In this document: piece after piece, positions 39,211-56,531 of the stretch | How the letters are laid out: each line of letters begins with the position of its first letter | How positions within the stretch are numbered: the first letter of the stretch is position 1 | Source of the DNA: Adhaeribacter radiodurans | GTDB taxonomy: Bacteria > Bacteroidota > Bacteroidia > Cytophagales > Hymenobacteraceae | Reading direction: 5' to 3' | Length of the DNA stretch: 64,000 nt | NCBI RefSeq assembly: GCF_014075995.1 | Contig: NZ_CP055153.1 | Span: 6,448,001-6,512,000 of the forward strand | Notes under the pieces: generated by a model | The model's database searches: none | The model's input: only the letters and a program-made list of their open reading frames with translations | What the model was told of the DNA's origin: nothing | Program-made: the position numbers and the translations under genes

Positions 39211-39294
39211 TGCCATTTTATTAAATATCTGATTTATAGCAGATTATATTAACATGGATTAAGGAAAAAGATAGAATTGTCCGGTTCCGATACA
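39211..39294 (-). promoter_or_regulatory. Upstream control module of TolC
   Basis: On the minus strand, a 17-bp motif TGTATCGGAACCGGACA (39278-39294) is followed after exactly 62 nt by TGGCATTTT, whose TGGCA is at 39211-39215. The permease block at 56 kb has the same motif and the same distance. The TGGCA box resembles a sigma-54 -24 element, but a proper -12 GC is missing. I interpret the 17-bp motif as a binding site for an activator. Confidence 0.6.
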
Positions 39295-39413
39295 AGTAAT
39301 TGTTCGCTTTTATAACACTTATACCCGACTGTCTAAACATTATTCTATAGAGAGTTAAGGTAAATTATTGGCTTTAATTTCTTGAAATACCTAGCGGTGT
39401 TTGCTTTTTTCTT

Positions 39414-39602
39414 TGGAGACTTGAAAAGGCTCCAAATGACGGTGCTGATGCAGTTCAACGGCCTACGTTTGCCTCATGGCCGGCGGGCCTCGTTTGGCTA
39501 TAGAGGGCGGTTTAGCGAACCTTGGCTCACTCCGTTGCGTCATGCTACTGCGTAGCACCGGAACGCTAAAAGGCCCTCTATAGCCAAACTGGTGTCATTA
39601 CA
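39414..39602 (-). repeat. ~190-bp structured repeat, copy 1
   Basis: It lies in reverse orientation to copy 2. Outer stem TTTGGCTATAGAGGGC (39493-39508) pairs perfectly with 39573-39588. An inner stem TTTAGCG (39511-39517) pairs with CGCTAAA (39564-39570). An apical hairpin TGCTAC/GTAGCA sits at 39543-39557. It starts GGAGACTTGAAAAGGCTCC at the other side, and ends CTGGTGTC. Confidence 0.8.
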
Positions 39603-39828
39603 TGGTAGCAAAGTCTTTCTTGTTTTTATTGACTTGTTATATTTACTATGTAGCTATTACTAATTTTCTAAAGTTCGTGACTTGAATTAGGGTACTATTT
39701 TATATCACTCCTGCCTCTCCTAAAATAGGAGGGGAGCCTGCAGTACTTTCTGAATGTAAAACCCTAGTATTTTATAAAATAATTGAATGAATTAATCAGT
39801 AGTAGCAATATCAGGTGCTACTAGTAAA

Positions 39829-40025
39829 GATACCAGTTTGGCTGTGGAGGGCCTTTAGCGTTCCGGTGCGGCGCAGCAGCATGGCGCAGTGCAACGAGCC
39901 AAGGTTCGCTAAACCGCCCTCCACAGCCAAACGAGGCCTGCAGGCCACGAGGCAAACGTAGGCCGTTGAACTGTATCAGCACCGTCATTTGGAGACTTGA
40001 AAAGGCTCCAGGGAAAAGCCCTTTA
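39829..40025 (+). repeat. ~190-bp structured repeat, copy 2
   Basis: Outer stem TTTGGCTGTGGAGGGC (39837-39852) with GCCCTCCACAGCCAAA (39916-39931), 16 bp perfect. Inner stem TTTAGCG (39854-39860) with CGCTAAA (39907-39913). Relative to copy 1, two outer-stem pairs change from G-C to A-T on both strands. Confidence 0.8.
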
Positions 40026-40099
40026 TTCAACTTTATATAGCCAAGAGTTTATACACTTTAGTATTAATTATAAGCCAAAACCAAGTAAGTACAGATCAT

Positions 40100-40134
40100 A
40101 AAAAAGCCAGACCTGTTTTGCAGACCCGGCTTTT
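40100..40134 (-). terminator. Intrinsic terminator after the last permease
   Basis: On the minus strand, AAAAGCCGGGTCTG pairs with CAGGTCTGGCTTTT around CAAAA (with G-U pairs), followed by a T-run. It lies about 50 bp after the stop at 40183 and ends the permease series before TolC. Confidence 0.8.
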
Positions 40135-40182
40135 GTTAAACCAAATTTTGCTACTTTAAAATTTACTATTTATTATAAATCT

Positions 40183-42615
40183 TTATTCGCTGCGTAGGGC
40201 TTTTATTGGGTTACTGCCCGCTGCTTTTAAGGCGTGAAACGAAACGGTAATTAAAGCAATAATAACTGCCAGCACCATAGCCAGGGCAAATGTCCACCAC
40301 GTAATAGGTGTACGATAAGCAAAATCCTGGAGCCACTTATGCATGCCGTACCAGGCAATAGGCCAGGCCAGAATATTTGCTACCAATACCAGTTTCAGGA
40401 AATCTTTGGAAAGCAGCGATACAATTCCGGCAACCGAAGCGCCTAATACTTTGCGGATGCCAATTTCTTTGGTGCGCTGTTCAATGGCGAAAGAAGCTAA
40501 ACCAAACAAGCCAAGGCAGGCAATTAAAATAGCAATACCGGAGAAAAGGGTAAATAGGGTTCCTAGACGTTGCTCGGTTTCGTACAAGCGGCCAAATTTT
40601 TCGTCCAGAAATGTATATTCAAACGGCCGGTGCGGTAAAAATTGTTGCCACGTTTTCTCAATGTGCGCTAAGCCTTCAGGCAATTGATTGCCCTTAATTT
40701 TAAAAGAAAGATCGTTATAACCATCGCCTTGCGACATGATGAAAACTAGGGGTTTTATCTTTTCGTGCATCGATTCAAAATGAAAATCTTGGAGCACGCC
40801 TACCAGCTTACCTTTGCGATTACCGTATTCAACGTTCCGGCCCAACGCGTCCTGCGGATGGGTAAAGCCCAGCATTTTCATTCCGGCTTCGTTCAAAATA
40901 AAAGCCATAGAATCGTCGGTAGGATAGGTACGGGGATCAAAATTACGGCCGGCTATTAATTTTATCCGGTAAGTATCAATGAACTGATCGTCGATGCCCA
41001 AATATTGAAAAGAAACCGGCGAGGGAGCCAGTGAATCTTCTTTCTGAATCCGGAGCGTACCCATGGAATTTAACAAACGATCAGAAGGCACGCCAATAGA
41101 CCGCCCCACCTGAGTTACCACGCCATTGGATAACACCTCGTTTCGGAAAGCACTGTACCGTTCGTTAAGTTCGCTGGTGTAATTTATGGTAACAATATGT
41201 TCTTTATCGAAGCCTAAAGTAATATTTCGGCAATAGCTTAATTGCTTGTACACAATAGCTGTACTCACCAATAACACCACCGAAATAGCAAATTGCAGCA
41301 CTACCAGCGTTTTGCGCAGCGACACCGAATTGCGCCCTACGGTTAAGGTGCCTTTTAATACTTTAACCGGCTGAAACGAAGATAAAAACAGGGCAGGGTA
41401 GGAGCCCGCGAACAAACCTACCAGCAAGGCCAGCCCGAACATAATTACTATCATTAGCCAACCATTGCCGAAAGTAAAGCTTAGTTCTTTGTCTAAAAAC
41501 CGGTTTAGGAACGGCAAGGTTAGCCGGGTAAGTACCAACGCAATTATCACCGCCAGAAAGGCAAACAGCAACGATTCGCTTAAAAACTGCCGGATTAAAT
41601 TGGGCTGGGTAGCACCCATTACTTTGCGCAAACCAATTTCTTTCGCCCGCAAAGAAGAACGGGCCGTTGATAAATTCATGAAATTAATACAGGCAATAAG
41701 CAAAATAAACAACGCTACTGCCGAAAATAAATACACGTTGGTAATATTGCCATTCGGCTCCAATTCTGAATCCAGGTGCGATCGCAAATGAATATCGGTA
41801 AGTTTCTGGAGAAACAGTTTGGTCCACGACGAAGGCTTTACTTGTCCATCACTTTCTTCGGTCATGTGGCGGTCGATAAAAGCCGGAAACTGAGCCTGCA
41901 TGTTTTCTATGGGGTACTCTTTTGGTAACAGTAAATAAGTATTAAAGGAGTTATTGCCCCAATTGGTGAGTAAGTTTTGCTTGCCGTAAATAGTGCTGTC
42001 TTCCAGAGTATTAAATGATACCAGAAAATCGGGGTGCATGTGAGAGTTGGCGGGAAAGGATTCGTAAACGCCGGTTACTTTCACGTTAAACTGGTTGTTC
42101 ATGCGCAGCACCTGACCTATCGGGTTTTTCTCCGGAAAGTACTTTTGAGCCATTTTCTCGGTGAGCATAATAGAATACGGCTCCTGCAAAGCTTTCTCCG
42201 GGCTGCCCTGCTGAACCGGGACAGAGAAAATTTTAAAAAAAGATGGCTCCGCGAAGAAAACTTCCCGCTCGTTAAACGAGTGTTCTTTATCCAGAGCCAG
42301 CAGAGTATTGGTTTGCAGGGTACGCGCTACTTGTTCGATATCCGGAAAATCATTTTTGAGCAAAGGGCCGAAAGGCGGCGCCACATTGGCTAAATGCAAA
42401 CTTACGTTACCATCCGGATCGGAAAAATTGCGGGTAACGCGATAAATACGGTCGGCATTTTTATGGTAAGTATCGTAGCTTAGTTCCTGCCGGATATACA
42501 AGGCAATGAGCAAACAACAGGTAAGCCCTACTACCAGACCAAACAAGTTAATAAAAGTAAATACACGGTGCCGTCGCATATTGCGCCAGGCAATTTTTAA
42601 ATAATTCCGGAGCAT
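40183..42615 (-). CDS. MacB/FtsX-type ABC transporter permease (array member 1)
   Basis: An 810-residue inner-membrane protein with a duplicated layout: TM helix (about 18-40), MacB_PCD periplasmic domain, three-helix FtsX domain with ARSSLRAKEIGLRKVMGA (about 315-335), then a second TM/periplasmic/FtsX unit with EQRTKEIGIRKVLGAS (about 705). It ends NPIKALRSE. Such permeases pair with a MacB-type ATPase, none of which is seen here. By shared phrases (LANVAPPF, SDRLLNS) its closest relative in the array is member 6 (53706-56123), not its neighbours, which suggests duplication followed by insertion or rearrangement. Confidence 0.9.
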   Translation of the reverse strand: MLRNYLKIAWRNMRRHRVFTFINLFGLVVGLTCCLLIALYIRQELSYDTYHKNADRIYRVTRNFSDPDGNVSLHLANVAPPFGPLLKNDFPDIEQVARTLQTNTLLALDKEHSFNEREVFFAEPSFFKIFSVPVQQGSPEKALQEPYSIMLTEKMAQKYFPEKNPIGQVLRMNNQFNVKVTGVYESFPANSHMHPDFLVSFNTLEDSTIYGKQNLLTNWGNNSFNTYLLLPKEYPIENMQAQFPAFIDRHMTEESDGQVKPSSWTKLFLQKLTDIHLRSHLDSELEPNGNITNVYLFSAVALFILLIACINFMNLSTARSSLRAKEIGLRKVMGATQPNLIRQFLSESLLFAFLAVIIALVLTRLTLPFLNRFLDKELSFTFGNGWLMIVIMFGLALLVGLFAGSYPALFLSSFQPVKVLKGTLTVGRNSVSLRKTLVVLQFAISVVLLVSTAIVYKQLSYCRNITLGFDKEHIVTINYTSELNERYSAFRNEVLSNGVVTQVGRSIGVPSDRLLNSMGTLRIQKEDSLAPSPVSFQYLGIDDQFIDTYRIKLIAGRNFDPRTYPTDDSMAFILNEAGMKMLGFTHPQDALGRNVEYGNRKGKLVGVLQDFHFESMHEKIKPLVFIMSQGDGYNDLSFKIKGNQLPEGLAHIEKTWQQFLPHRPFEYTFLDEKFGRLYETEQRLGTLFTLFSGIAILIACLGLFGLASFAIEQRTKEIGIRKVLGASVAGIVSLLSKDFLKLVLVANILAWPIAWYGMHKWLQDFAYRTPITWWTFALAMVLAVIIALITVSFHALKAAGSNPIKALRSE

Positions 42616-42860: not shown

Positions 42861-43667
42861 TTACTTATTTTTTTCTCCCGATACTACCTCACTGAATTTG
42901 CGGCCGCCCAGTTGGGTGTATTTAAAATCTTTGGTTCCGTTAAAGGCAATGCCTTGTAGTTTTACATCGTCGGAGAAATCGGCGTATTTAAAGTTTGCTA
43001 AACCGTTAAATTGGGCCTTTTCAAAATTGGTGTTACCCGTAAACTTAGCGTATTTAAAATCCGCATCCTCGGTAAATACTGCCTGACTAAAATTAGTGCC
43101 TGCCGGGAAATGCACGTATTTAAATACGGCACCATCGTTAAACTTTACTTTACTAAAATCCGGAGCCTGCTCAAACTTGGTGTATTTAAAGAAAGCTTCG
43201 TCTTTAAATTGACTGCTGGCAAATGAAATTCCCTCTTTAAACTGGCTATATTTAAAAGTAGCTTCCTGCTCAAAAGTACAGTTCTCAAAGCGTACCGCTT
43301 TATCAAAATTGGTATTATAAATTTCGTTTTTCTTGTCGTTATTATTAAAGTACATGATGCCTTGGTCCGGATTATAATAAGCCAGTACTTTGCCCGTAAA
43401 GGTGCAGTTCGAGAATGTTAGCGGAGCGGTAACGGTGCTGATGTATTCTTTCGTGGAGCGGTCATTGTCCTCATCTGCAAATTTTTTCAATTTTTTGTTG
43501 GCCAGTTGAGTCAGGTCGAGGTTACCGGTTATTTCGGCGTTTTTGTAAGTTACGGCCTCACCGCGGTTTACCTGTGCCAAAATATCGGCAGCGGCTACTT
43601 TTGTTTGGGCTACTACCCGGCCCGAAACAATAATAATGATTAAGAGAACAGACACTAAACTTTTCAT
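42861..43667 (-). CDS. Secreted pentapeptide-like protein with exact 11-residue repeats
   Basis: 268 residues from the ATG at 43665-43667; the upstream eight in-frame residues are not signal-like. Sec signal MKSLVSVLLIIIIVSGRVVAQ. After a linker, about 12 units of 11 residues begin near FENCTFEQEAT. Phe is at unit positions 1 and 6, and FKY opens every second unit (a 22-residue super-repeat). This is longer than the 5-residue period of ordinary pentapeptide proteins, but a related right-handed beta-helix is expected. It sits inside the permease operon, 89 bp after member 2. The role is unknown. Confidence 0.87.
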   Translation of the reverse strand: MKSLVSVLLIIIIVSGRVVAQTKVAAADILAQVNRGEAVTYKNAEITGNLDLTQLANKKLKKFADEDNDRSTKEYISTVTAPLTFSNCTFTGKVLAYYNPDQGIMYFNNNDKKNEIYNTNFDKAVRFENCTFEQEATFKYSQFKEGISFASSQFKDEAFFKYTKFEQAPDFSKVKFNDGAVFKYVHFPAGTNFSQAVFTEDADFKYAKFTGNTNFEKAQFNGLANFKYADFSDDVKLQGIAFNGTKDFKYTQLGGRKFSEVVSGEKNK

Positions 43668-43756
43668 GGCTTTACTATTTATAAATAACAAGATGAGGTT
43701 GCTGTAAAGGGTAACCGTACCTTCCGGAAAAGGTAACAGGGTATAAGCATTTATTT

Positions 43757-46153
43757 TTACTCATTTCGTAAGGCTTTTACCGGGTTATCTAAAGCTGTTT
43801 TTATTGCCTGAAAGCTAATGGTTAATAAGGCTATTAGTAAGGCTCCCAAACCAGCGGCAATAAAAGTCCACCAGCTAAGCGTAATCCGGTAAGGATAATT
43901 TTCCAGCCAACGGTGCATGACCCACCAGGCTAGTGGCCAGGCAATCAGGTTTGCTAATATTACTAACCGGCAGAAATCCCGGGAAAGCAGCGCCACAATA
44001 GAGGAAGCCGAGGCACCCAGCACTTTGCGGATGCCAATTTCTTTGGTGCGGGTTTCGGCCATGTAGGTAACCAGACCAAATAAACCCAGAGCCGCAATAA
44101 AAATAGCGAAGCCCGTAAAGGCAGCAAACATTTTGGCGAGCCGGTCTTCGGCTTTATAAAGCGCATTAAAAGAATCGTTGAGGAAAGTGTATTCGAAAGG
44201 TTTCTCGGGTTGGTATTTTTGAAAAGTTGCCCCAATAGCCGCTACTTTTTGAGGAATGTCAGATTTTGGGTCAAGGCGAATGAACAGGCACCCACCCGCC
44301 ATAGTAGCCGTATCTTTTACCACCGACAAGTACAGCGGCTCTACTTCTTTATGGAGCGGGCTATAATTAAAATCTTTTAAAACGCCCACAATCTCGTTGG
44401 AAGTACCCAGTTTTAGAACCTGCCCGATAGGCTGTTCTTCTATCTGGAGCTTTTTAACGGCCGCTTCGTTAATGATAATGGTATTTCCCGTACCAATTCG
44501 CGTTTTATCTTCCGGCTGAATTTTCCAGGCTAAATCCAACGTGTTCAGGAAGCTTTCATCTACCTGCAGAAAGTTGAGCATCACATCCTGGTTGGTGGTA
44601 GGCGATTTAGTAAAAAATAGGGTGTAACCTTCGAAAAGCGTACTGGAGGCAGCTGCCACTTGTTGCACTCCCGTTTGCCGCCGGATCTCATTTTTTACAG
44701 CTCCGGCGTGGCGACCTGTAGTAGCATCGAGGGGCACAACTAATACTTGTTCTTTATAGAAACCAAGTTTTCGGTTTCGTACAAAATTTAATTGCTGTTG
44801 CACTACCAGGCTGCCAATAATCAAACCCACCGAAACCGCAAACTGAAACACCGTAAACGCGCGCCGTACCCAGGCACCACCCTGGTTAATTCCTAATTTT
44901 CCTTTCAGCACGGCTACCGGCGAAAACCGCGACAGCAGCAAGGCCGGATAACTTCCTGCCAGTAAAGCGCAAACTACTAATAAACTGAGTAAAGTAAGTG
45001 AAGCAACCGGACTGTATAAAAAATTAGCATCAATGCGCAAACCTAACAAATTATAAAATGCCGGCTGCAGTGCTTGCACCAACATCAGAGCCAAACCAAA
45101 AGCCAATAAACAGGTCAGGATGGATTCACCGTAAAACTGCACGGCTAGTTCGGAACGGCTCGCGCCCATTACTTTTCTAACACCCACTTCTTTGGCCCGT
45201 TTAGTAGCCTGAGCTGTGGTTAGGCTCATGTAATTGAGTATGGCCAGTAACATAATGGACAGCGCAATGCCTAGAGAAATATATATCGGCAGCACTTCGG
45301 AAGAACGACCAAAAGTGTTTTGCAGGTGCGCGCCCAGCAGCGGCACTATTGTATATTGTTCTTCCTTATTGTAACTATTTGTTTTCTGTAGCAACTTTAA
45401 AATAGACTTTTCTACTTTAGCCTGGCTAGTGGAGGCATTAAGTAAAAAATAGGTTACGTAGGAGCCGGAGCCTAAGTGATTCTGGAGGTAAGGAATACCA
45501 TCATCGTCGGAAATAAAACTGTTTTCTCCTTTTTCTACCTGAGCCAGACTGGAGAAAGAGCCGACAAAATCAAAATCAAGGGTGGAGTTGGATGGAGGAT
45601 TTTGGGCTAGTCCGGTTATTTCAAATGTATGCTTATTGTCGTAAGTAAGTGTTTTACCAATAGGGTTTGCGTCGCCGAAGTACTTATGCGCCATTCTATC
45701 AGAAATAACTACCGTACCGGGGCGCGATAACACTGTCCGAGCATTACCTTGCTTCAGGACAAAGGAGAAAACCGTAAATAACGAGCTATCCGCAAAAATA
45801 AATTTATCTTCGAAGAACCGGTGCTGCGGATCAGCTTTTACTACTATTCGGCGGGCTTCCCGCAGCCGCACTACTCCTTGCACTTCGGGTACGGCCCGCT
45901 GCACGGCGGGGCCAAACGGCGCCGACATACCCATCATCTGCAGCATATTACCCCCGTAATTTATTTTAGCTACTACTCGATAAATGCGTTCGGCCTGGGT
46001 ATGGAACCGATCGTAGGTAAGCTCGTGAGCCACAAAAAGCAGAATGAGGATGCTAACGGCCAAGCCGGAAGCCAAACCCGCTAAATTAGTAAAACCGTAA
46101 ATTTTGTGGCGCCATAAGTTACGCCAAGCAATGATTAAGTGATTCCGGAGCAT
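43757..46153 (-). CDS. MacB/FtsX-type ABC transporter permease (array member 2)
   Basis: A 798-residue protein of the duplicated MacB_PCD-FtsX type. First unit: TM LAGLASGLAVSILILLFVAHEL (about 24-45), periplasmic domain, FtsX with AKEVGVRKVMGAS. Second unit: TM around FTVFQFAVSVGLIIGSLVVQ, then ETRTKEIGIRKVLGASASSIVALLSRDF. It ends NPVKALRNE. It follows member 3 by 43 bp and precedes the 11-residue-repeat gene, so it belongs to the multi-gene unit starting at 56123. A frame at 43963-44235 lies inside it and is a shadow. Confidence 0.9.
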   Translation of the reverse strand: MLRNHLIIAWRNLWRHKIYGFTNLAGLASGLAVSILILLFVAHELTYDRFHTQAERIYRVVAKINYGGNMLQMMGMSAPFGPAVQRAVPEVQGVVRLREARRIVVKADPQHRFFEDKFIFADSSLFTVFSFVLKQGNARTVLSRPGTVVISDRMAHKYFGDANPIGKTLTYDNKHTFEITGLAQNPPSNSTLDFDFVGSFSSLAQVEKGENSFISDDDGIPYLQNHLGSGSYVTYFLLNASTSQAKVEKSILKLLQKTNSYNKEEQYTIVPLLGAHLQNTFGRSSEVLPIYISLGIALSIMLLAILNYMSLTTAQATKRAKEVGVRKVMGASRSELAVQFYGESILTCLLAFGLALMLVQALQPAFYNLLGLRIDANFLYSPVASLTLLSLLVVCALLAGSYPALLLSRFSPVAVLKGKLGINQGGAWVRRAFTVFQFAVSVGLIIGSLVVQQQLNFVRNRKLGFYKEQVLVVPLDATTGRHAGAVKNEIRRQTGVQQVAAASSTLFEGYTLFFTKSPTTNQDVMLNFLQVDESFLNTLDLAWKIQPEDKTRIGTGNTIIINEAAVKKLQIEEQPIGQVLKLGTSNEIVGVLKDFNYSPLHKEVEPLYLSVVKDTATMAGGCLFIRLDPKSDIPQKVAAIGATFQKYQPEKPFEYTFLNDSFNALYKAEDRLAKMFAAFTGFAIFIAALGLFGLVTYMAETRTKEIGIRKVLGASASSIVALLSRDFCRLVILANLIAWPLAWWVMHRWLENYPYRITLSWWTFIAAGLGALLIALLTISFQAIKTALDNPVKALRNE

Positions 46154-46196
46154 AACTGCATTTATTAAAGTTATATCTTATTTACCAGCGCTGTAC

Positions 46197-48608
46197 TCAT
46201 TCACTGCGTAAGGCATTTACCGGATTGGCAACGGCCGCTTTAATGGCCTGGAAACTCACGGTAAGTAATGCAATTAGCAAAGCTCCCATACCGGCCAGCC
46301 CGAATACCCACCAGTTAATATCAATGCGGTAAGCAAAATTCTGTAACCATTTATTCATGCCGTACCAGGCAATGGGACAGGCAATAACAATGGCAATTAG
46401 TATCAACTTAGTAAAATCGCGGGAGAGCAAAAGCATAATTTGGGGTACCGAAGCGCCCAGTACTTTGCGGATGCCGATTTCTTTGGTGCGTTGCTGCGCC
46501 GCAAAAGCAACCAGCCCCAGTAAGCCCAGGCAGGCAATAAAAATGGCTAAGCCAGAAAAAATAGTAAATACCTGGCTCATTTTGTGTTCTTTCGCAATCA
46601 TTTTACCAAAAGACTCATCCAGAAAGTGGTAGGTAAAAGGATATTCCGGGGCCATGGTTCGCCAGGTTTTTTCCAGGTCGGCTAAAGTGGCAGAAATATT
46701 CGTAGGACGGATGCGCACGGTCATCCAGGTAAAGGCTGCCGGGTACACGTGCATTACCAAAGGCTCTATTTTTTGCTGAATGGTTTTAAAATGAAAATCT
46801 TTTACCACCCCCACTACTTTTCCGTTTTTAACCTGATTAGGCGCTTCCCATTCGTCCCAGAAGATTTCTTTTCCTATAACTTGTTCAGGGGTGCCCAGAT
46901 TAAATTCTTTTACGGCAGTTTCGTTCAGAATAAAACCTTGTTTTTCGTCGGTTTTAAACTTCCGGGAGAAAGGCCGGCCGGCTACCATTTGCATATTTAG
47001 CACGGGCAGGTAGTCGTAATCTACCGCAAACATATTAATGTACCGGTCGTTCTTGTCGCCTCTGAGCCGAATGGTTTCTCCGGCGGCTACCCCGCCTGGT
47101 TCGCCGTAAGAGGCGGTGGCGGCCAATACATTCGGGTTCCGGAGAAGTTCGGTTTTAAATTGTTCGTAAGCCTGTTGCATTCGGGTGCCTTCCATTCTAA
47201 AAACCAGGGTTTGCTCTTTATTAAAACCTAAATCTTTATTTTGGAGGTAGTTTAGCTGGCGGTACACAATAGCGGTAGCGGCAATCAGCACTACAGAGAT
47301 TACAAACTGAATAACCACCAATCCTTGCCGCAACGAAGAAAGCCGATAGCCATTTGCCGTTGTATTGCTTTTAAGTACCGTAATCGGCCGGAAAGAAGAC
47401 AAGAAGAAAGCCGGGTACAAACCAGCCAATACGCCCACCGGGATACTTAGTACCAGCAAACCAACTATTACGGGTAAGTCTTTACTAAAATGCAAGTGTA
47501 AAAATTCGCCGGATAACGCATTGAAAAAAGGTAAAACCAATTTTACTAACGGAATAGCCAGCACGAAAGCAAGCAAAGTCATTAAAATGGATTCGCCGAG
47601 GTACTGACCGATAAGCTGGCTTTTTTGCGCCCCGATAACTTTGCGTACACCTACTTCTTTGGCCCGCTTCAGGGAACGAGCCGTAGATAAGTTCATAAAA
47701 TTAAAGCAGGCAATAACCAGAATAAATACCGCGATAATAGCAAAGGCATACACGTAATTAATGTTGCCACGGTTGGGCTGGTCGTACTCCAGGTGCGCCG
47801 AACGCAGGTAAATATGCTTTACCGGTTGCAGGTGAAAAACGTATTGGGTGTTTTCGGAGCGGGTGAGCGGGTCTACTACTTTCTGGGTAAAATCGGCCAG
47901 TTTTGCTTCAAATTCCTGCCGGGAAGTGTTATTTTTTAGCCGTATATAAGTATAAAACTGCTGCCAGGTCCAATCCTGTAACCGCTCCTGAAAAAGCGAA
48001 CGAGCCAGGGAGAAAGAGGCAATAAAATCGGCTTTTAAATGCGTGGGAGTAGTCGGTTTCGCCAATACCCCCGTTACAGTTAGTTTCGCCTCTTTATCCA
48101 GCGAGATAGTTTTGCCCACCGGGTTTTCTGAACCAAAGTATTTTTGGGCCGTCGCTTCCGAAAGAAGTACACTATTAGGAGTGTGTAAGGCTGTTCGGGC
48201 ATCGCCGTACCGCAAGCGTAAGTTTAAAATTTGTAAAATTGAAGAATCGGCCAGGTAAAAGTTGTCTTCGTAAAATCGGTTTTGCTCGTACTCTACCAGG
48301 GAACCCGGCATAATTATCAGGCGGGCAGCCTGCTCCACTTCCGGTAAATTTTTTAGTAAAGTAGGGGCCAGCATAGGAGTAGTAAAGGCAAGTAACTTTT
48401 CCCGCTCTACGTTTTTATCTTCGGCTACTATCCGGTAAATATCATTGGCGTGTTGATGGTGCGTATCGTAGCCCAAGGATGTGCGCACGTACAAGAAAAT
48501 TAGTAGGCAACAGGCCATACCAATGGCGAGCCCGGCAATATTCAGGAAGGAATAAAACTTATGACGGAATAAATTCCGGAAAGCTAATTTGAGGTAATGG
48601 GTAATCAT
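46197..48608 (-). CDS. MacB/FtsX-type ABC transporter permease (array member 3)
   Basis: An 803-residue protein. N-terminal TM IAGLAIGMACCLLIFLYVRTSL (about 24-45), two periplasmic MacB_PCD domains and two FtsX domains (ARSLKRAKEVGVRKVIGA; AAQQRTKEIGIRKVLGASVPQIMLLLSRDF). Ends NPVNALRSE. It lies between members 4 and 2 with spacings of 46 and 43 bp, too short for separate promoters, so co-transcription is likely. The periplasmic domains differ strongly from those of neighbours while the FtsX regions are close, which suggests diverged cargo or partner recognition. Confidence 0.9.
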   Translation of the reverse strand: MITHYLKLAFRNLFRHKFYSFLNIAGLAIGMACCLLIFLYVRTSLGYDTHHQHANDIYRIVAEDKNVEREKLLAFTTPMLAPTLLKNLPEVEQAARLIIMPGSLVEYEQNRFYEDNFYLADSSILQILNLRLRYGDARTALHTPNSVLLSEATAQKYFGSENPVGKTISLDKEAKLTVTGVLAKPTTPTHLKADFIASFSLARSLFQERLQDWTWQQFYTYIRLKNNTSRQEFEAKLADFTQKVVDPLTRSENTQYVFHLQPVKHIYLRSAHLEYDQPNRGNINYVYAFAIIAVFILVIACFNFMNLSTARSLKRAKEVGVRKVIGAQKSQLIGQYLGESILMTLLAFVLAIPLVKLVLPFFNALSGEFLHLHFSKDLPVIVGLLVLSIPVGVLAGLYPAFFLSSFRPITVLKSNTTANGYRLSSLRQGLVVIQFVISVVLIAATAIVYRQLNYLQNKDLGFNKEQTLVFRMEGTRMQQAYEQFKTELLRNPNVLAATASYGEPGGVAAGETIRLRGDKNDRYINMFAVDYDYLPVLNMQMVAGRPFSRKFKTDEKQGFILNETAVKEFNLGTPEQVIGKEIFWDEWEAPNQVKNGKVVGVVKDFHFKTIQQKIEPLVMHVYPAAFTWMTVRIRPTNISATLADLEKTWRTMAPEYPFTYHFLDESFGKMIAKEHKMSQVFTIFSGLAIFIACLGLLGLVAFAAQQRTKEIGIRKVLGASVPQIMLLLSRDFTKLILIAIVIACPIAWYGMNKWLQNFAYRIDINWWVFGLAGMGALLIALLTVSFQAIKAAVANPVNALRSE

Positions 48609-48654
48609 ATTTATCTGAGATTAAAACCAACATAACTTAACTAAGCACTTGCCT

Positions 48655-51108
48655 TTACTCATTCCGGAGCGCATCTACCGGGTTGGCCAGGGCAGCTTTT
48701 ATGGCTTGGAAACTAACCGTTACTAAGGCAAGGAGTAAAGCCGCTACTCCGGCCAATACAAATATCCACCAGTTCATTTCGATGCGGTAAACAAAATCTT
48801 GCAGCCAGCGGTGCATGCCGTACCACACAATCGGCCAGGCTAGGATATTCGCCAGTACTACCAACTTTATAAAATCCTGCGACAGCATAGCGGCAATGCT
48901 ATTTACCGAAGCTCCCAGAATTTTGCGGATGCCAATTTCTTTCGTGCGGGTATTAATGGTAAACATTACCAAGCCTAATAAACCCAAACAACTAATAAGA
49001 ACCGATAAGCCAGTGGCCCAGCTTAAAAGCCGTGCAGTGCGCCGTTCGGTTTGGTAAAAATTAGCTACTGTTTCGTCTACAAAACGGTATCCAAAATCTT
49101 CGCAGGGGTATATCTGGTGATAAGCTTTCTGGATTTCGCGGATGGCTTGCTGCCAATTATCGGCGCCGGAAATATTAGGCTTTAACCTGACGTGAAATAT
49201 ATCGCCGTTATTACCGCCCAAAATAAGCGGCGTTATAGATGCATGCATGGATTGCTCATGAAAATCCTGCATTACACCCACAATAGGTACTTTCTTTTCT
49301 CCAAAGAGGAGAGGCTGACCAATAGCCTCTTCCGGATTTTGAAAGCCCAGTAATTTGGCATAGGTAGCATTAATCAGAAATTCTTTGATGCTATCACTGG
49401 CCAGGATGTTTCGGCCGGCCAGTAATTTTATTTTATAAACATGAATGTAATTAGGATCGCCCCAGCGTATTTGCACCGGGTCTTTTATTTCGGGTTTTGG
49501 AGCAAAGGATATGTTCGTGAAAGCGGGGCCTTCTTCAATCGGAGCCAGAAAACCGGTACTCGCCAAGTCTACGGCAGATATAGCGTTTATTTCGTTTAGT
49601 AATTGTTGCCGGTGGGTAGTTACTGTATCACGGGGCAACGAGAAAGTAATAATGCCTTCTTTGTTAAAACCTAACTCGGTGTGTAAAGAATAATTAATTT
49701 GTTTGCTTACAATTAAAGTAGCCACTACAAAAATTTGCGCTATGGCAAACTGCGACACAGTTAAGGTTTTTCTAATCCAGACTTGTTTGGTCTCGTTGCC
49801 GCTGGTGAGGGATTGCGCCTTTAAAACTTTTATAGGTTGATAGCCCGATAAAACAAAGGCTGGGTACAAGCCGGACAGAAAGCTTACCAATAAAGTGAGC
49901 AGGAATAAAAACAAAAACACATGCGGCTGCCGCAGCGATTGTACCTGTAAACCTTCCGGAATAAAATCGGCAAATAAGGTAAGTAGGGCAGGCGCCAAGG
50001 AAAAAGAAATAAGAGCGGCTACGGAAGTTAATAAAAAGGTTTCTCCTAAAAACTGAATTATTAGTTGTTTGCGGGAACTACCCATGGTTTTTCGAATACC
50101 GATTTCTTTGGCGCGCCGAGCAGCATTAGCGGTAGTAAGGTTAATAAAGTTGATACAAGCCAGCAATAACAAAAATGCAGCCACCGCGAACAAACTGTAC
50201 AGAACAGATTTAGGTATTATTCTTTGATTAAAACCCGAATAATCTTTGTTAAAATGAAGGTCGCTTAAAAGTTGCAGCTTAAAGCGCATGCTGTTGCCTT
50301 TATCTTTATTGGCGTCTTTATTATATTTTTTAAAAAGGGCAACTAATTGATTCTCTACGTTAGCAGCCTGGTTATTTGGGGCCAGTTTTACGTACACTTG
50401 AGAATAAGCCATCCAATCGTTCCATACCTGCATCATAAAATTATCCTGCAAGTGGGTTTGAGCAATGGTAGCAAACGAGATGAATTCTACAGCCTCGAAA
50501 GAGGTGGTTTCGTTTAAATCCTGCACAATGCCCGAAACGGTAGCGGTAAAATCTTCATTATATTTTATTTCTTTACCCAGAATGTCCGGCAGGTTTTCTG
50601 AAGGAAAATATTGTCTGGCTCGGCTTTCGGTGAGGACTACTGTAAATGGATTTTTAAGCGCGTTATTAGGCGAACCGGCTAACCATTGAAAAGGCAATAA
50701 TGAAAAATACTGAGAATTAGTAAATATAATACCGGCTTGCTTTTTTAAAATTACTGGTTCGGTTGTTTTTTCTCTTTGGATGCTCACTTTGGCCGTAGCA
50801 TCGCCCTGAAACTGCATGAGCGGTACGGTTACTTCTACACCGGAAACTTCCTGTTGAATGGCGTTGCTTAAGGGAGCCGGTACGGCCGCGCTGTGGCCTT
50901 CGTTGCCGTTAAATTTTAGGTCCATTACCACCCGGTAAACCTGGTCAGAATTAGACACGAATTTGTCGTAGCTAAACTCGTAATGCACAATTAAGAAAAT
51001 AATCAGAGAAGCACTAATGCCAATAGATAAGCCTAAAACATTTATGGCTGTAAAAGCTTTATTGCGAATAAATATTCTAAAGGCCATTCTTAAATAGTTC
51101 TGAATCAT
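48655..51108 (-). CDS. MacB/FtsX-type ABC transporter permease (array member 4)
   Basis: The longest member at 817 residues. TM1 is VLGLSIGISASLIIFLIVHYEF (about 24-45). The first FtsX has AANAARRAKEIGIRKTMGSSRKQLIIQFL, the second NTRTKEIGIRKILGASVNSIAAMLSQDF. It ends NPVDALRNE. It resembles member 5 in its first periplasmic domain (VPAPLSNAIQQEV, LSDLHFNKDYSGFN), hinting at a local tandem duplication. A 128-bp spacer separates it from member 5 upstream. Confidence 0.9.
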   Translation of the reverse strand: MIQNYLRMAFRIFIRNKAFTAINVLGLSIGISASLIIFLIVHYEFSYDKFVSNSDQVYRVVMDLKFNGNEGHSAAVPAPLSNAIQQEVSGVEVTVPLMQFQGDATAKVSIQREKTTEPVILKKQAGIIFTNSQYFSLLPFQWLAGSPNNALKNPFTVVLTESRARQYFPSENLPDILGKEIKYNEDFTATVSGIVQDLNETTSFEAVEFISFATIAQTHLQDNFMMQVWNDWMAYSQVYVKLAPNNQAANVENQLVALFKKYNKDANKDKGNSMRFKLQLLSDLHFNKDYSGFNQRIIPKSVLYSLFAVAAFLLLLACINFINLTTANAARRAKEIGIRKTMGSSRKQLIIQFLGETFLLTSVAALISFSLAPALLTLFADFIPEGLQVQSLRQPHVFLFLFLLTLLVSFLSGLYPAFVLSGYQPIKVLKAQSLTSGNETKQVWIRKTLTVSQFAIAQIFVVATLIVSKQINYSLHTELGFNKEGIITFSLPRDTVTTHRQQLLNEINAISAVDLASTGFLAPIEEGPAFTNISFAPKPEIKDPVQIRWGDPNYIHVYKIKLLAGRNILASDSIKEFLINATYAKLLGFQNPEEAIGQPLLFGEKKVPIVGVMQDFHEQSMHASITPLILGGNNGDIFHVRLKPNISGADNWQQAIREIQKAYHQIYPCEDFGYRFVDETVANFYQTERRTARLLSWATGLSVLISCLGLLGLVMFTINTRTKEIGIRKILGASVNSIAAMLSQDFIKLVVLANILAWPIVWYGMHRWLQDFVYRIEMNWWIFVLAGVAALLLALVTVSFQAIKAALANPVDALRNE

Positions 51109-51236
51109 AGAAGTAGATTTAGAAGATTTCTAGTGCTATTGTTCAATGCCGGGTAATGAGCCAATGGTACTCAATCACTCTGCACCCCGGCTTACTAATT
51201 CTTCTTACCTAAATTTGATATTTTTTAGAGCTAATA

Positions 51237-53651
51237 TTATTCGGTTCTTAAGCTTTTTACCGGGTTCGCTACGGCGGCTTTAATAGCCTGGAAACTTACG
51301 GTAACTAAAGCAATAAGCAGAGCGCCCACACCGGCAATAGCAAACATCCACCAGCCAATGGGCGTGCGGTATTCAAAATCCTGCAGCCAGCTTTGCATTA
51401 CCCACCAGGCCAGCGGCCAGGCCAGCACGTTAGCCAGTAAAACCAGTTTCAGGAAATCGCGGGAAAGCAGCGATACGATGTTGGGCAGCGAAGCACCCAG
51501 TACTTTGCGGATACCGATTTCTTTGGTTTTCTGCACCGCCACAAACGATACCAACCCATAAAGCCCTAAGCAGCCAATGAAAATGGCAATGCCGGCAAAA
51601 ATTTTAAATAATTGCGCCAGCTTAGTTTCGCCTTCGTAGAACTCCGCTAAACGCTCATCCAGAAAATTAGCCTCGTACACGTACTCCGGAAAAGTTTCGT
51701 TCCAAATTTGCTCCACGGTATGTAGGGTCTCTTTCATATCCGCATTGGTAGATTTTAATTTTAAACCTACCTGCCGGTAGCTGCTTTTATTCGCGAGTAT
51801 GGCGGTGGGTGCAATGGGGTCGCGCAGCGATACATTGTGAAAATCCTGCACTACCCCAACTACCGGATAATTGCGATCGTTGATGCGTATAGTCTGACCA
51901 ATGGCATCCTGGGCGTGCTTCACGCCGACCTGTCGGAGTAATTTCTCGTTTACTACCACTTCGCGGGCGGTATCGCTAGGGAAATAAGCCCGCCCGGCCA
52001 CTAACCGCAATTGGAAAGTAGAAAAATAATCGACATCGCCGGCTTTTAAGTTAACCGGAAACTGCGCGTCTTCAGTGGCTTTGCCGAACCGGAAATTAGT
52101 CATGGAGTTACTGCCCGACGAAGGCGCCGCGAAATGCAAACTTACTTTTTGCACTGCCGATAAAGCCTGGAACCGGTTTTTTAACGTTTGCAGTTTTAGT
52201 TGGCTCAGGCTATCCTGGGGTACGGTTACCAGCAAGATGGCTTCTTTGTTAAAACCTAAATCCTTTTGGCGCACATAGTCCATTTGCGTAATGGCAATAA
52301 GCGTGGCGATAATCAGAACCTGAGAAATGGAAAACTGCATCACCACCAAAGCTTTGCGCAACGAAATACCACCCACGGTTTGCAGCGTCATTTTACTTTT
52401 TAAAGCCTGTACCGGCTGAAAACCCGATAAAATTAAGGCCGGATAAAAACCTGAAAGTACGGTAACCAGCAAAATCAGGAAGAACAGAAAACCAATTACT
52501 TCCAGCGAAAAAGGCAGCTGGAAATCCTCCGGAAGGTTAGAGATAGATCGAATAAACGGCAGCACCGCCATTACCAGTAATACCGCCACCGAAACCGCCA
52601 GTACCACAATCACGAACGTTTCGCCGAGAAACTGCACCATTAAATGACCCCGGTTACTGCCCAGTACTTTGCGGATACCGGTTTCTTTGGCCCGGCCAAT
52701 GGCTTGCGCCGTAGCCAGGTTCACGAAATTAATGCAGGCAATTACCAAAATAAAAGCACCAATAAGTACCAGCGACAAAACCGTGGCTTTGCTGATGCTG
52801 CGGTACGTCATGGACGGGTAGCGCGTATTAAAATGCAAATCCGATAAAGCCTGCAGTTTGTAGGTGTGGTTACGATCGTCGGGATTGTGTTTTTTTAAAA
52901 AAGACATTAATGACCGATCAAATTGTGCTTGCGATACTTTGGGCGGCAGCGCCAGGTAGCATTGCGTGCTGCTCCAAACACTGCCCCAATTGGTAAATTC
53001 ACTCGCCTCCAGAAAATGGCGAATAGTTGGAAAAGAAACGGCTATTTGTAATGGAAAATCGGTATTATCCGGCAGGTCTTCTAAAATGCCGTTTACCTGC
53101 AGCAATTGTTTGTTATCGAGCTTAATAAACTTGCCTAAGGCTTTTTGCCAGGTGCCGAAATACTTTTCGGCAGTAGAGCGGGTTAAGGCTACGGTATTGG
53201 GTTCTACTAAAAATTTCTTAGGGTCACCGGCCAGCCATGGGTAATCAAAAATTTGAAAAAACTCGGGTTCTGTGAATAAAAGGCTGGTTTCTTCTCTAAA
53301 CTTTTTGGTAATAGCACCGTGCTCATCTAAAACCGTGATTTGCGAATTATAGGCTTGGAAAGTAGTAGTTACTTTTTCTAGTTGCGGAAAGTCGGTTTTT
53401 AAGGCGGGCACAAACGGAAACGGCACCCCTACTTGGTAATCTTTACCGGCTTCGTGGGTAAACTCGTTTACCACCCGATATGTACGGTCGTATTTTTTAT
53501 GAAACGTATCGAAGCTTAGCTCAAACCTTACAATTAAAAATATAAGCAAAGCCACCGCTACGCCCACCGACAAGCCAGCAATGTTTAGCAGCGAAAAAGC
53601 TTTGTGCCGCAGCAAATTCCGGAAAGCAATTTTAAAGTAGTTGAGTAGCAT
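51237..53651 (-). CDS. MacB/FtsX-type ABC transporter permease (array member 5)
   Basis: An 804-residue protein. TM1 IAGLSVGVAVALLIFLIVRFEL. FtsX motifs AQAIGRAKETGIRKVLGSNRGHLMVQFL and VQKTKEIGIRKVLGASLPNIVSLLSRDF. Ends NPVKSLRTE. Member 6 precedes it by 54 bp. The first periplasmic domain is like member 4 (LSDLHFNTRYPSMT). All eight TM helices and both periplasmic domains are intact. Confidence 0.9.
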   Translation of the reverse strand: MLLNYFKIAFRNLLRHKAFSLLNIAGLSVGVAVALLIFLIVRFELSFDTFHKKYDRTYRVVNEFTHEAGKDYQVGVPFPFVPALKTDFPQLEKVTTTFQAYNSQITVLDEHGAITKKFREETSLLFTEPEFFQIFDYPWLAGDPKKFLVEPNTVALTRSTAEKYFGTWQKALGKFIKLDNKQLLQVNGILEDLPDNTDFPLQIAVSFPTIRHFLEASEFTNWGSVWSSTQCYLALPPKVSQAQFDRSLMSFLKKHNPDDRNHTYKLQALSDLHFNTRYPSMTYRSISKATVLSLVLIGAFILVIACINFVNLATAQAIGRAKETGIRKVLGSNRGHLMVQFLGETFVIVVLAVSVAVLLVMAVLPFIRSISNLPEDFQLPFSLEVIGFLFFLILLVTVLSGFYPALILSGFQPVQALKSKMTLQTVGGISLRKALVVMQFSISQVLIIATLIAITQMDYVRQKDLGFNKEAILLVTVPQDSLSQLKLQTLKNRFQALSAVQKVSLHFAAPSSGSNSMTNFRFGKATEDAQFPVNLKAGDVDYFSTFQLRLVAGRAYFPSDTAREVVVNEKLLRQVGVKHAQDAIGQTIRINDRNYPVVGVVQDFHNVSLRDPIAPTAILANKSSYRQVGLKLKSTNADMKETLHTVEQIWNETFPEYVYEANFLDERLAEFYEGETKLAQLFKIFAGIAIFIGCLGLYGLVSFVAVQKTKEIGIRKVLGASLPNIVSLLSRDFLKLVLLANVLAWPLAWWVMQSWLQDFEYRTPIGWWMFAIAGVGALLIALVTVSFQAIKAAVANPVKSLRTE

Positions 53652-53705
53652 AGTTTTAATCGATAGTTCAGGGTCAATAGACCATAATTTTTTAAATAAT
53701 TTAAA

Positions 53706-56123
53706 TTACTCGTTCCGTAGCGCCTCTACCGGGTTTGCCACAGCGGCTTTTATCGCCTGGAAGCTTATTGTAAGCAGGGCAATAGTTAAAGCCAGCAGCG
53801 TTGCCCACCCAAACGTAGACCACGATAAGGGCGTGCGATAAGCAAAATCCTGGAGCCAGCGGTGCATGCCGTACCAGGCAATGGGCCAGGCCAACAGGTT
53901 CGCCAATAACACTAATTTTAAAAAATCACGTGAGAGCAAAGCCACAATACTGCCAATGGAAGCGCCCAGCACCTTGCGAATGCCAATTTCTTTGGAGCGC
54001 TGCTCCGTAGCAAAAGTGGCCAAACCAAACAAGCCTAAGCAGGCAATTAAAATAGCCATGCCGGCAAACAGCGTAAACAAAAGTCCCTGCCGCTGTTCGG
54101 CTGCATAGAGCTGGCCAAATTTCTGGTCCAGAAAAGCGTACTCAAACGGATAGTCCGGGAGAAACTGTTTCCAGGTTTTTTCCAGCTGAGTTATTCCATA
54201 TTGTAAATCCGCGCCCGCTAACTTTACCGATAAATGCCGGAATTCGGACGTAGGCGGAATCATGAACAAAATAGGTTTGATCTTTTGGTGCATCGATTCG
54301 AAGTGGAAATCCGATAATACTCCCACAATCTTAGCCCGACGGTCGCCGTAATCAATGGTGCTTCCAATGGCTTGCTGAGGCGTTTTAAAGCCCAATGCTT
54401 TTACTCCGGCTTCGTTCAGCAGAAAAGCCTTGTTGCTATCAGTGGGATACGCTTCAGAAAAGTTACGGCCCGCTAAAACCTTAATTTTATAGGTCGGCAC
54501 GAAATAAGGATCGATGCCCAGAAATTCAAATGATAGCGAAGATTCCTTGTACGATCCACCTGATTCAATGCCCATCTCGCCCAATGAATTTAGTAAACGT
54601 TCGGAAGGCGCTTCTATGGAACGGGCCACCTGCGCGACGGCATTAGTAGCTAATAATTCATTCCGGAAAGCCTGGTAACGCGCGGATAAAAGCGGCATGT
54701 AAGGCAGCGTAACGATGTAATCTTTGTTTAAGCCCAAAGATTTATTTTGCAGGTAGCCTAATTGTTTGTACACCACGGCCGTGCTCACCACCAATACTAT
54801 CGTAATCGCGAATTGCAGTACTACCAGCGCTTTTCGCAACGATACGGTACGGTTTATCTGGATAATTTTGCCTTTTAAAACTTTTGCTGGCTGAAACGAA
54901 GACAAATACAAAGCCGGATACGAACCCGCTACCAAGCCAACCAGCAAGGCTAAACCCAGCACTACCAAAGCCGTTAGCCAACCATTTACCGGACTATAAG
55001 TTAGCTCTTTACCAATCAAATGATTCATCAGCGGCAAAGCCAGATCGGTGAACACTACGGCCAGTAGTACCGCAATCAATACAAACAACAGCGATTCGCT
55101 TAAAAACTGCACAATTAACTTGCCCTGGCTGGCGCCCATTACTTTGCGTACTCCTATTTCTTTCGCCCGCACTGACGAACGAGCGGTAGATAAATTCATG
55201 AAATTAATGCATGCAATGAGTAAAATAAACAAAGCAATTACCCCAAATAAATACACCTGCTTGCTATCGCCGTTGGCTTCCAGTTCGGTATCCAGGTGGG
55301 AATGTAAATGAATATCGGTAAGCTTTTGCAGAAACAGGTTGTTGTACGAAGAAGGCCGGGTATTCTGGTATTCAATGTGCCGGTCGAGGAATGCCGGCAG
55401 TTGCACGCTGATGTGGGCTACGTTGTATTTTGGTGGTACCAGCAGGTAAGTGGTAAACCGATTGATGCTAAAGTTAGCCAGGTTTTTCCGGCCAAAAAGC
55501 GTACTATCCTGCAGGGTGCTAAACGAAACCAGAAAGCTCGGGTGGAAATGGGAGTTTACCGGAAAGTCCTGGAATACGCCGCTTACTTTTAAAGTTACTT
55601 TGTTATCCAAGCGCACCAATTGGCCAATGGGGTTTTGCTTCGGGAAATACTTCGCTACTAATTTTTCGGTGAGCAGGATGGTGTTTGGTTCGCTTAGGGC
55701 CGTTTGCGCATTGCCACTATGGAGCAGAACGGTAAAAATTTTAAAAAAAGAAGGCTCCGCAAAAAATACATTCTCTTCGGTAAAGAATTTCTGCGGACTA
55801 ACAGCTATTACGGCCTTGTGCTGCAACAAACGGGTAGCTTCTTCTATCGCCGGAAAATCGTTTTGAAGCAAAGGGGCAAAAGGCGGAGCAATATTCGCTA
55901 ACTGTACTCCGGGCAATCCGTCTTCGCCGTTAAAGTAGCGACCTACCCGGTAAATACGGTCGGCATGGGCGTGATACTTATCGTAACTTAACTCCTGCAA
56001 AATAAACAAGGCAATCAGCAGGCAACATGCTAAACCCACGGCCAGGCCAAAGATGTTGATGAACGAAAACAACTTGTGCCGCAGCAAATTCCGGATCGCA
56101 ATTTTGAAGTAGTTGAGTAGCAT
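53706..56123 (-). CDS. MacB/FtsX-type ABC transporter permease (array member 6, first of the block)
   Basis: An 805-residue protein and the 5'-most gene of the block from 56123 to 42861. TM1 IFGLAVGLACCLLIALFILQEL; FtsX motifs ARSSVRAKEIGVRKVMGASQGKLIVQFL and EQRSKEIGIRKVLGASIGSIVALLSRDF; ends NPVEALRNE. Its closest sibling is member 1 (shared LANIAPPFAPLL, LVSFSTLQDSTLFGRKN, SERLLNSLG). The upstream 155 bp contain the shared control module (56171-56277), which probably drives the whole block. Confidence 0.91.
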   Translation of the reverse strand: MLLNYFKIAIRNLLRHKLFSFINIFGLAVGLACCLLIALFILQELSYDKYHAHADRIYRVGRYFNGEDGLPGVQLANIAPPFAPLLQNDFPAIEEATRLLQHKAVIAVSPQKFFTEENVFFAEPSFFKIFTVLLHSGNAQTALSEPNTILLTEKLVAKYFPKQNPIGQLVRLDNKVTLKVSGVFQDFPVNSHFHPSFLVSFSTLQDSTLFGRKNLANFSINRFTTYLLVPPKYNVAHISVQLPAFLDRHIEYQNTRPSSYNNLFLQKLTDIHLHSHLDTELEANGDSKQVYLFGVIALFILLIACINFMNLSTARSSVRAKEIGVRKVMGASQGKLIVQFLSESLLFVLIAVLLAVVFTDLALPLMNHLIGKELTYSPVNGWLTALVVLGLALLVGLVAGSYPALYLSSFQPAKVLKGKIIQINRTVSLRKALVVLQFAITIVLVVSTAVVYKQLGYLQNKSLGLNKDYIVTLPYMPLLSARYQAFRNELLATNAVAQVARSIEAPSERLLNSLGEMGIESGGSYKESSLSFEFLGIDPYFVPTYKIKVLAGRNFSEAYPTDSNKAFLLNEAGVKALGFKTPQQAIGSTIDYGDRRAKIVGVLSDFHFESMHQKIKPILFMIPPTSEFRHLSVKLAGADLQYGITQLEKTWKQFLPDYPFEYAFLDQKFGQLYAAEQRQGLLFTLFAGMAILIACLGLFGLATFATEQRSKEIGIRKVLGASIGSIVALLSRDFLKLVLLANLLAWPIAWYGMHRWLQDFAYRTPLSWSTFGWATLLALTIALLTISFQAIKAAVANPVEALRNE

Positions 56124-56531
56124 GGCCGAAGCGATTTAATGTACCGGTACAAAATAACGCGTAAGAAAAATGCCACGATTGTAAACTGCTAAATTATAAT
56201 AAGTTATATAGGTAAAAGCCAGGGTTGAATTTAAAAATGTCCGGTTTTGATACAATAAATTGTCCGGTTCCGGAACAGAGGTTAGAACTAATTTAATCAA
56301 GCGCTTAAATCAAATGCAAGTGAGCAGAAGTTGACACCATTCTGCTTTCGTCCTAAAAGTTTTTAACCTGATATGATACAGCTAATTTGTTTAAAAAGAA
56401 GTTTTTAAATTAGTTTATGGGTAAATTATATTAACTACAAATTGCGCATTTACTACTATATTGGAGGGATAAACTAACAGTTTCTATATACATTCTAGCT
56501 ACCTGCTATCTTAAAAGGGCTTTATACATTA
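56124..56531. other. Divergent spacer with control module (408 bp)
   Basis: Between permease member 6 (leftward) and the low-GC gene at 56532 (rightward). It holds the motif module at 56171-56277. The rest is AT-rich, without genes. Confidence 0.6.
56171..56277 (-). promoter_or_regulatory. Upstream control module of the permease block
   Basis: On the minus strand there are two 17-bp motifs, TGTTCCGGAACCGGACA (56261-56277) and TGTATCAAAACCGGACA (56238-56254). Their starts are 23 bp apart, close to two helical turns. Exactly 62 nt after the second comes TGGCATTTTT, with TGGCA at 56171-56175. Motif, distance and TGGCATTTT box are as in the TolC module (39211-39294). The -24-like TGGCA suggests sigma-54, but the -12 position has AC instead of GC. 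Confidence 0.62.

Follow-up and report, generated by a model that had tools for sequence, protein, structure and literature searches.

Sigma-54 promoters with tandem enhancer sites and a bend made by IHF are well known and include those of the pspA, glnHp2 and nifH type. Among exporters, a duplicated permease without a neighboring ATPase gene is the defining trait of the ADOP family. YbbP of E. coli has its own ATPase, YbbA, and is not known to have a TolC partner, nor is a regulon of the kind described below known for YbbAP. Bacteroidota genomes contain dozens of duplicated FtsX-type permeases without a nearby ATPase gene. In a paper of 2025, the passages cited here report that COG0577 permeases of Bacteroidia are enriched under predicted sigma-54 promoters and call this the first evidence (PMC12316311). 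That genome-scale prediction agrees with ours, but unlike the present case it comes, in those passages, with neither an activator and its sites nor a regulon, and nothing there connects the permeases to an adaptor or ATPase. We analyzed a stretch of 64,000 nucleotides from Adhaeribacter radiodurans (C2:6448001-6512000 of the 6,935,613-base genome, C2 being contig NZ_CP055153.1), hereafter called the window, in which a TolC gene and an operon of duplicated permeases are preceded by the same promoter elements. Our results suggest that both belong to one inducible exporter regulon, controlled by an NtrC-type activator and sigma-54, in which a single motor would serve many permeases. Sites, spacings, genes, conservation and co-occurrence are seen directly in the sequences, whereas the wiring built on them is a prediction; we put the probability of this reading at about 0.82. 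Full-text literature searches of open-licence papers found no published account of this regulon.

The sequence-only reading of the window had reported the same motif at 39 kb and at 56 kb, each exactly 62 nt from a TGGCA box. When sequences and coordinates were rechecked, both the motif and the spacing proved correct base for base. That is, a TGGCATTTT box lies at 39215..39207 and at 56175..56167, and the gap between site and box is exactly 62 bases in both promoters. The strand had been given for the 39-kb site only; in fact, all of the sites are on the minus strand (Table 1). A second motif 23 bp further upstream at 56 kb had also been described properly (the distance runs from start to start), but the second site at 39 kb had been overlooked. 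We call these upstream activator sites UAS1 (nearer to the box) and UAS2. The likeness of TGGCA to a -24 element and the missing -12 GC of both promoters had been recognized rightly (positions 12-15 of the box, counted from the T of TGGCA; Table 1). Matches to TGTNYCNRAACCGGACA without a mismatch occur just three times in the window, at UAS1 of the TolC promoter and at both sites of the permease operon. With up to three mismatches there were 8 matches against 3.4 expected, a number reached in 0 of 100 shuffles.

In the whole genome, the 17-bp motif together with ATGCCA at N48-68 was found at 8 places, against 0 for the reversed control. All eight are located in front of, and oriented toward, exporter genes: six precede permease operons (104.4, 125.8, 131.6, 6504.2, 6513.9 and 6519.3 kb), one precedes the TolC gene (6487.2 kb), and one precedes an HlyD adaptor gene (6766.7 kb). 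A second site of the form TGT-N11-ACA/G is present in 8 of the 8 promoters, so that all of them possess two 17-bp sites.

The motif alone was rejected as a definition of the regulon, with 19 matches at up to 1 mismatch in the whole genome and 6 for the reversed pattern. Nine of the 19 are in regulon promoters, seven lie within genes or away from gene starts, and three mark possible members, namely a DUF4097 gene (TGGTAT at 64 bp), a DUF4440 gene and an SH3-domain gene. The DUF4097 gene (L034:3379-4422, C2:6758379-6759422) is 5 kb from the HlyD-ATPase/activator hub and has TGTACCATAACCGAACA 64 bp from TGGTAT; it is likely a weak member.

The HlyD match lies in this hub, at 6764-6770 kb, where an ABC (ATP-binding cassette) ATPase of 230 amino acids (aa) and an HlyD-type adaptor of 420 aa are encoded on the same strand. 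Divergent from them are a response regulator of 459 aa and a histidine kinase of 453 aa. The genome scan had been proposed in the sequence-only reading, which looked for the motif before an ATPase, an adaptor and a sigma-54 activator gene; it came out positive, with an adaptor-ATPase operon whose back-to-back neighbors encode an NtrC-type activator and its kinase. The activator is composed of a receiver, a sigma-54 AAA+ domain and a Fis-type helix-turn-helix (PF00072, PF00158 and PF02954, all above cut-off), and the named relatives closest to it come from Adhaeribacter, with 81% identity. Besides one rpoN gene, the genome contains 7 full-length sigma-54-type activators, a count that leaves out three weaker matches; 3 of the 7 are beside ABC exporter genes. 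The adaptor-ATPase operon retains only a 124-aa C-terminal remnant of a permease, most like the hub permeases of the nearest congeners (71.8%), and the partner permease of this pair is therefore presumably encoded elsewhere.

A paralogous set (L035, C2:1660190-1666553) consists of an ATPase and a permease together with an activator whose loop is GAFTDA and a kinase. Related 16-bp sites accompanied by TGGCATT boxes occur on each side of it, and it is probably a sister regulon with altered specificity. In one genus of the family (L245, L247, L249) the activator faces a permease that is followed by other genes; the genes after the permease encode an S41 peptidase and a DUF4932 protein in L247 and a transglutaminase-type protein in L243.

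The permeases at 56 kb had been described as a five-permease block. The five are present (D1 to D5), but they are followed on the same strand by a pentapeptide-repeat gene and a sixth permease, D6. The genome has 55 MacB_PCD matches. Duplicated permeases of about 785-823 aa number 22 and are located at 89-137 kb and 6488-6519 kb (the set leaves out one permease next to the activator paralogue, and three of greater length, 852-904 aa). Twenty of the 22 belong to runs of genes on one strand, spaced by no more than 246 bp, that begin with a motif promoter; the other two, E1 and E2, come after permease F at 0.7 kb. No ABC ATPase match was found in the permease clusters; PF00005 has 60 matches genome-wide. 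Mean pairwise identity of the 22 permeases reaches 0.70 in segment 700-735, the part expected to touch the ATPase; the two FtsX parts have values of 0.46 and 0.62, and both periplasmic parts have 0.31. A predicted model of D1 (m2a14107d35aa; pLDDT, the predicted local distance difference test, 82.7) has E. coli YbbP as its nearest solved fold, followed by MacB and LolE.

The operon of the hub ATPase in sister species continues directly behind that gene with one or two such permeases. In a FastTree phylogeny of 49 permeases, whose groupings were read without support values, permeases that other species encode directly after the ATPase fall together with orphans of the window genome: B1/B2 with L061, E2 with L076, A1/B3 with L076, A6 with L251/L064/L063, and A5 with L066/L063/L251/L061. 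A separate clade is made up of the hub permeases found in the nearest congeners. The sequence-only reading had held that TolC and the permeases form one export system. The co-regulation part of this claim is well supported by sequence. The assembly of a pump is reasonable to propose from sequence because the genes are co-regulated, no ATPase adjoins the permeases, and related permeases do adjoin the ATPase in sister species. In its fullest form, a hub-and-spoke arrangement, a single ATPase-adaptor-TolC set would energize about 20 interchangeable scattered permeases, each with its own cargo-facing domain; we hold this tentatively, at a little under even odds.

It may be that the permeases belong to the same regulon but are only co-induced, and that they are driven by other ATPases or by none, as envelope sensors or as lipid/lipoprotein movers. 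The genes for the ATPase, adaptor and channel are far from most of the permeases, ABC_tran matches are numerous in the genome, and the nearest solved fold is that of YbbP, which has an ATPase of its own and no known TolC partner; all of these agree with such an explanation. They have to be set against the permeases adjoining the hub ATPase in sister species, several of which group with the orphans in the tree, against the coupling segment being conserved much better than the rest, and against the hub operon having kept just a permease remnant. We consider this explanation rather unlikely. If the hub-and-spoke arrangement is true, it identifies the motor of the orphan permeases in which Bacteroidota genomes abound. 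The common promoter points to one particular ATPase for them, and likewise to an adaptor, a channel, a kinase and an activator, which makes the question of motor and inducer directly testable.

Among 150 genomes of the family, the joint motif was present in 49 and an orthologue of the activator in 56 (at least 70% identity, a threshold chosen after a gap down to 65% was seen). Both were present in 49 genomes, the motif only in 0, the orthologue only in 7, and neither in 94 (Fisher 2e-32, a value inflated because the promoters share ancestry). The reversed control pattern matched in 3 of the 150. Five of the seven orthologue-only genomes have sites but a TGGCA without the following T, one has CGGCAC (locus L061), and in the last one none was found. 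In two congeners (G003 and G009) the activator-kinase pair is elsewhere, with no site within the 8-9 kb examined around it, and HlyD retains its sites; the sites therefore serve the exporter genes. That one activator controls both window promoters, as had been supposed, is well supported by these data, because the eighth site fronts the HlyD-ATPase operon beside the activator and because motif and activator occur together. A class-wide search with a looser box gave matches in 51 of 395 genomes and control matches in 17; for the latter reason single matches were not trusted, and the only ones that look real are those with paired or multiple sites.

We read 77 loci (8 from this genome and 69 from related genomes), which gave 70 distinct promoters and, after three were dropped (L141, L197 and L204, with spacers of 48, 49 and 67), 67 promoters. 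Their first downstream gene is a permease in 43, HlyD in 13, TolC in 5, and another gene in 6. The distance from UAS1 to the box was 51-54 in 23 promoters, 62-64 in 44, and 55-61 in 0, within the spacers of about 47-67 that the search could detect. UAS2, taken as the best-scoring second site within 17-45 bp of UAS1, was 22/23 bp from UAS1 in 47 promoters and 33/34 bp in 20. For both intervals, the classes are one helical turn apart.

A third conserved element lies between UAS1 and the box. It is centered at -19, and in the 67 promoters it shows A at -30 and T at -23 (96% each) on one side, A at -15 and T at -8 (99% each) on the other. Its right half has, at one fixed place, at most 1 mismatch to WATCARNNNNTTR, the IHF consensus given in the cited part of PMC8899819, in 36 of 67 promoters (shuffled maximum 3), and its left half fits a mirror copy of this consensus equally closely in 36 of 67. 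In the TolC promoter the right half has 0 mismatches and the left half 3. Two domain models found one and the same HU/IHF-type gene in the genome. Being single, its product would form a homodimer, and in this form it could bend the promoter site and explain the mirror symmetry of the element.

TGGCA, with its GG at -24, is present in 8 of the 8 promoters of this genome, but this is no independent proof because the search required TGGCAT. Positions 12-15 of the 67 promoters read TTTC in 22, TTAT in 16, TTAC in 12, TTCC in 7, TGTA in 4 and others in 6; the canonical TTGC, with its GC ten bases from the GG, was found in none of the 67. T occupies position 12 in 100% and position 13 in 90% of them, so that the TT is still spaced as in sigma-54 promoters. 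In a distant set of 52 loci around the activator (L086-L137), a scan for TGGCA[CT]-N5-TT before genes gave 17 boxes, which ended in TTGC (12), TTGA (3), TTGG (1) or TTAC (1). The genes behind 10 of these boxes were scanned and proved to be 4 TolC-type, 2 HlyD-type, 3 duplicated permeases and 1 ABC ATPase. Nine of the 17 were inspected for sites, and six of the nine, all in Bacteroidales (L094, L102, L106, L115, L116, L137), carry a pair of 17-bp TGTC-type sites that are spaced by 21-22 bp and stand 53-56 bp away from a TGGCAY-N5-TTGC/TTGA box, before TolC or permease genes. Since the Bacteroidales share the layout together with the canonical TTGC, we take the layout to predate the family and the loss of the -12 GC to be a derived trait of this lineage. 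Canonical TTGC before such genes in these relatives supports sigma-54. Considering the TGGCA, the TT spacing, the type of activator and the canonical relatives, we infer that the regulon promoters are sigma-54-dependent.

Four others of the 17 boxes, at L114, L124, L130 and L134 in Bacteroides-type genomes, have the form TGGCAY-N5-TTGC and precede a gene resembling a small heat-shock protein, judged from its first residues; the last three of the 17 are unclassified.

The box might instead not be a sigma-54 promoter; the activator would then work with the main sigma factor, and TGGCAT would be part of another element. The lack of TTGC is in keeping with this, as is the activator loop, which reads GSFTDA in place of GAFTGA (FTDA or YTDA in 77 of 80 relatives). 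The sigma-54 spacing of the TT, however, is retained, and relatives with the same FTDA loop have TolC, HlyD and permease genes behind boxes that end in TTGC. Furthermore, GAFTDA and GSFTGA are natural functional variants compatible with activation, according to the part of PMC4641369 cited here. We regard this explanation as improbable. A coupling between the FTDA loop and the lost -12 GC was considered and rejected; relatives with the same loop (for example L086, L094, L102, L106, L116 and L137) end their boxes in TTGC.

That the shared sequence is a by-product of duplication, with promoters copied along with the permease genes and having no common function, is very improbable: the permeases are indeed clustered paralogues, but the same sites precede the unrelated TolC and HlyD genes, which already contradicts this idea, the spacers are dissimilar except at the elements while spacings change by whole turns, and the motif tracks one activator gene across genomes and stays on HlyD where that gene moved.

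The preferred reading, an NtrC-type/sigma-54 exporter regulon, can be put as a mechanism as follows. The motif would be a binding site, the UAS, that comes in tandem pairs and is recognized by a single response regulator of the NtrC type. We infer that the activated regulator binds both sites, that the DNA between is bent at the IHF-like element, and that the bound hexamer remodels a sigma-54 RNA polymerase poised at the TGGCAT box; the -12 half of this box would have drifted from TTGC to TTNC/TTAT. This would jointly switch on 20 duplicated permeases that lack an ATPase, encoded in six operons, as well as the TolC channel and the HlyD/DarC-like adaptor with the DarD-like ATPase of its operon, and probably also the two permeases behind permease F. 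The products probably form tripartite pumps, in which one motor, adaptor and channel would serve many alternative permeases. The inducing signal is most likely envelope or peptide stress, judging from the likeness to DarBCD and MacAB.

Several results weigh against this reading. With no TTGC in the 67 promoters, the use of sigma-54 rests on a TGGCA that the search required, on the TT at 12-13 and on the relatives. The three joint matches with deviating spacers were set aside before the phasing was counted, and one of them (L197) precedes a permease. Some promoters have only a weak UAS2, whose best score is -2.4 in L163 and 0.6 in L151. In this genome the IHF-like element is degenerate: a search for the whole element with up to 2 mismatches recovered just 4 of the 8 promoters, along with 3 places elsewhere, against 1 for the control. 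The co-occurrence statistic ignores phylogeny, E1 and E2 lack individual sites, and other ATPases among the 60 PF00005 matches could serve the permeases.

Table 1. Positions of promoter elements and genes (window coordinates unless marked C2).
Feature	Position	Strand	Remarks
UAS1, TolC promoter	39278..39294	minus	TGTATCGGAACCGGACA
UAS2, TolC promoter	39301..39317	minus	TGTTATAAAAGCGAACA; 23 bp from UAS1
IHF-like mirror element, TolC promoter	39222..39246	minus	TAATCTGCTATAAATCAGATATTTA
-24/-12 region, TolC promoter	39201..39215	minus	TGGCATTTTATTGTA; TGGCA kept, positions 12-15 TGTA, not TTGC
UAS2, permease operon	56261..56277	minus	TGTTCCGGAACCGGACA
UAS1, permease operon	56238..56254	minus	TGTATCAAAACCGGACA
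IHF-like element, degenerate, permease operon	56182..56206	minus	TAACTTATTATAATTTAGCAGTTTA; mismatches: left half 3, right half 2
-24/-12 region, permease operon	56161..56175	minus	TGGCATTTTTCTTAC; positions 12-15 TTAC, not TTGC
TolC-family outer-membrane efflux protein	37635..39101	minus	488 aa; PF02321, two stretches
Duplicated MacB_PCD/FtsX permease D1	53706..56123	minus	805 aa; first gene of operon
Duplicated permease D2	51237..53651	minus	804 aa
Duplicated permease D3	48655..51108	minus	817 aa
Duplicated permease D4	46197..48608	minus	803 aa
Duplicated permease D5	43757..46153	minus	798 aa
Pentapeptide-repeat protein	42861..43691	minus	276 aa; within permease operon
Duplicated permease D6	40183..42615	minus	810 aa; last gene of run
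Duplicated permease E1	60359..62755	minus	no motif directly upstream; 0.7 kb downstream of motif-headed permease F
Duplicated permease E2	57893..60322	minus	37 bp behind E1
Permease F, 3' part	63483..64000	minus	motif promoter outside window, C2:6513948-6514033
NtrC-type activator	C2:6766904-6768283		255 kb outside window
Histidine kinase	C2:6768273-6769634		partner of activator

Between the genes of the window there are also copies of a dispersed, strongly inverted repeat family of about 140-200 bp (39407-40017, 57663-57852 and 62989-63136). Copies at other loci are 71-86% identical, and several of them are beside exporter or activator genes (L035, L036, L048, L030). An open reading frame at 9811-10668 resembles an IS5-type transposase, judged from its sequence.

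Compared with the promoters of the pspA, glnHp2 and nifH type, the present ones are alike in the paired upstream activator sites, the intervening IHF-like element, the TGGCA box and the NtrC-type AAA+ response regulator. They differ in that the -12 GC is lost, the IHF-like element is mirror-symmetric, the sites are unusually close to the box (51-54 or 62-64 bp) and strictly phased, and the target is an exporter regulon. As a clean natural series of probable sigma-54 promoters, they show activator sites shifting by whole helical turns, and a -12 GC that is lost in one lineage and kept in relatives.

As to the exporter, the darobactin exporter DarBCD (NF038008, NF038010, NF038007) likewise has a separate adaptor, ATPase and duplicated permease. 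Among NCBIfam models, DarC is the closest for the adaptor and DarD for the ATPase, and the permeases match ADOP and DarB as best or second-best models, with all three Dar models below their curated cut-offs (159.5/700, 191/450 and 299.1/375 bits). Unlike in DarBCD, the permeases here are multiplied and scattered. The orphan permeases of ADOP (TIGR03434) share the duplicated MacB_PCD-FtsX layout, the large paralogous set and the absence of an adjoining ATPase gene, and two permeases that were scanned scored 292.8 and 320.3 bits, below the cut-off of 622.3; in the present case, however, a common promoter ties an ATPase and an adaptor to the permeases. MacAB-TolC also combines an adaptor, an FtsX-type permease and a TolC-type channel, but MacB has its ATPase in the same chain, whereas the present permeases have no ATPase domain. 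YbbAP of E. coli, the nearest fold to the modelled permease (template modelling score TM 0.44-0.45, E-value 2e-19), likewise has a separate ATPase, but it has one permease per ATPase, unlike the set of many permeases described here.

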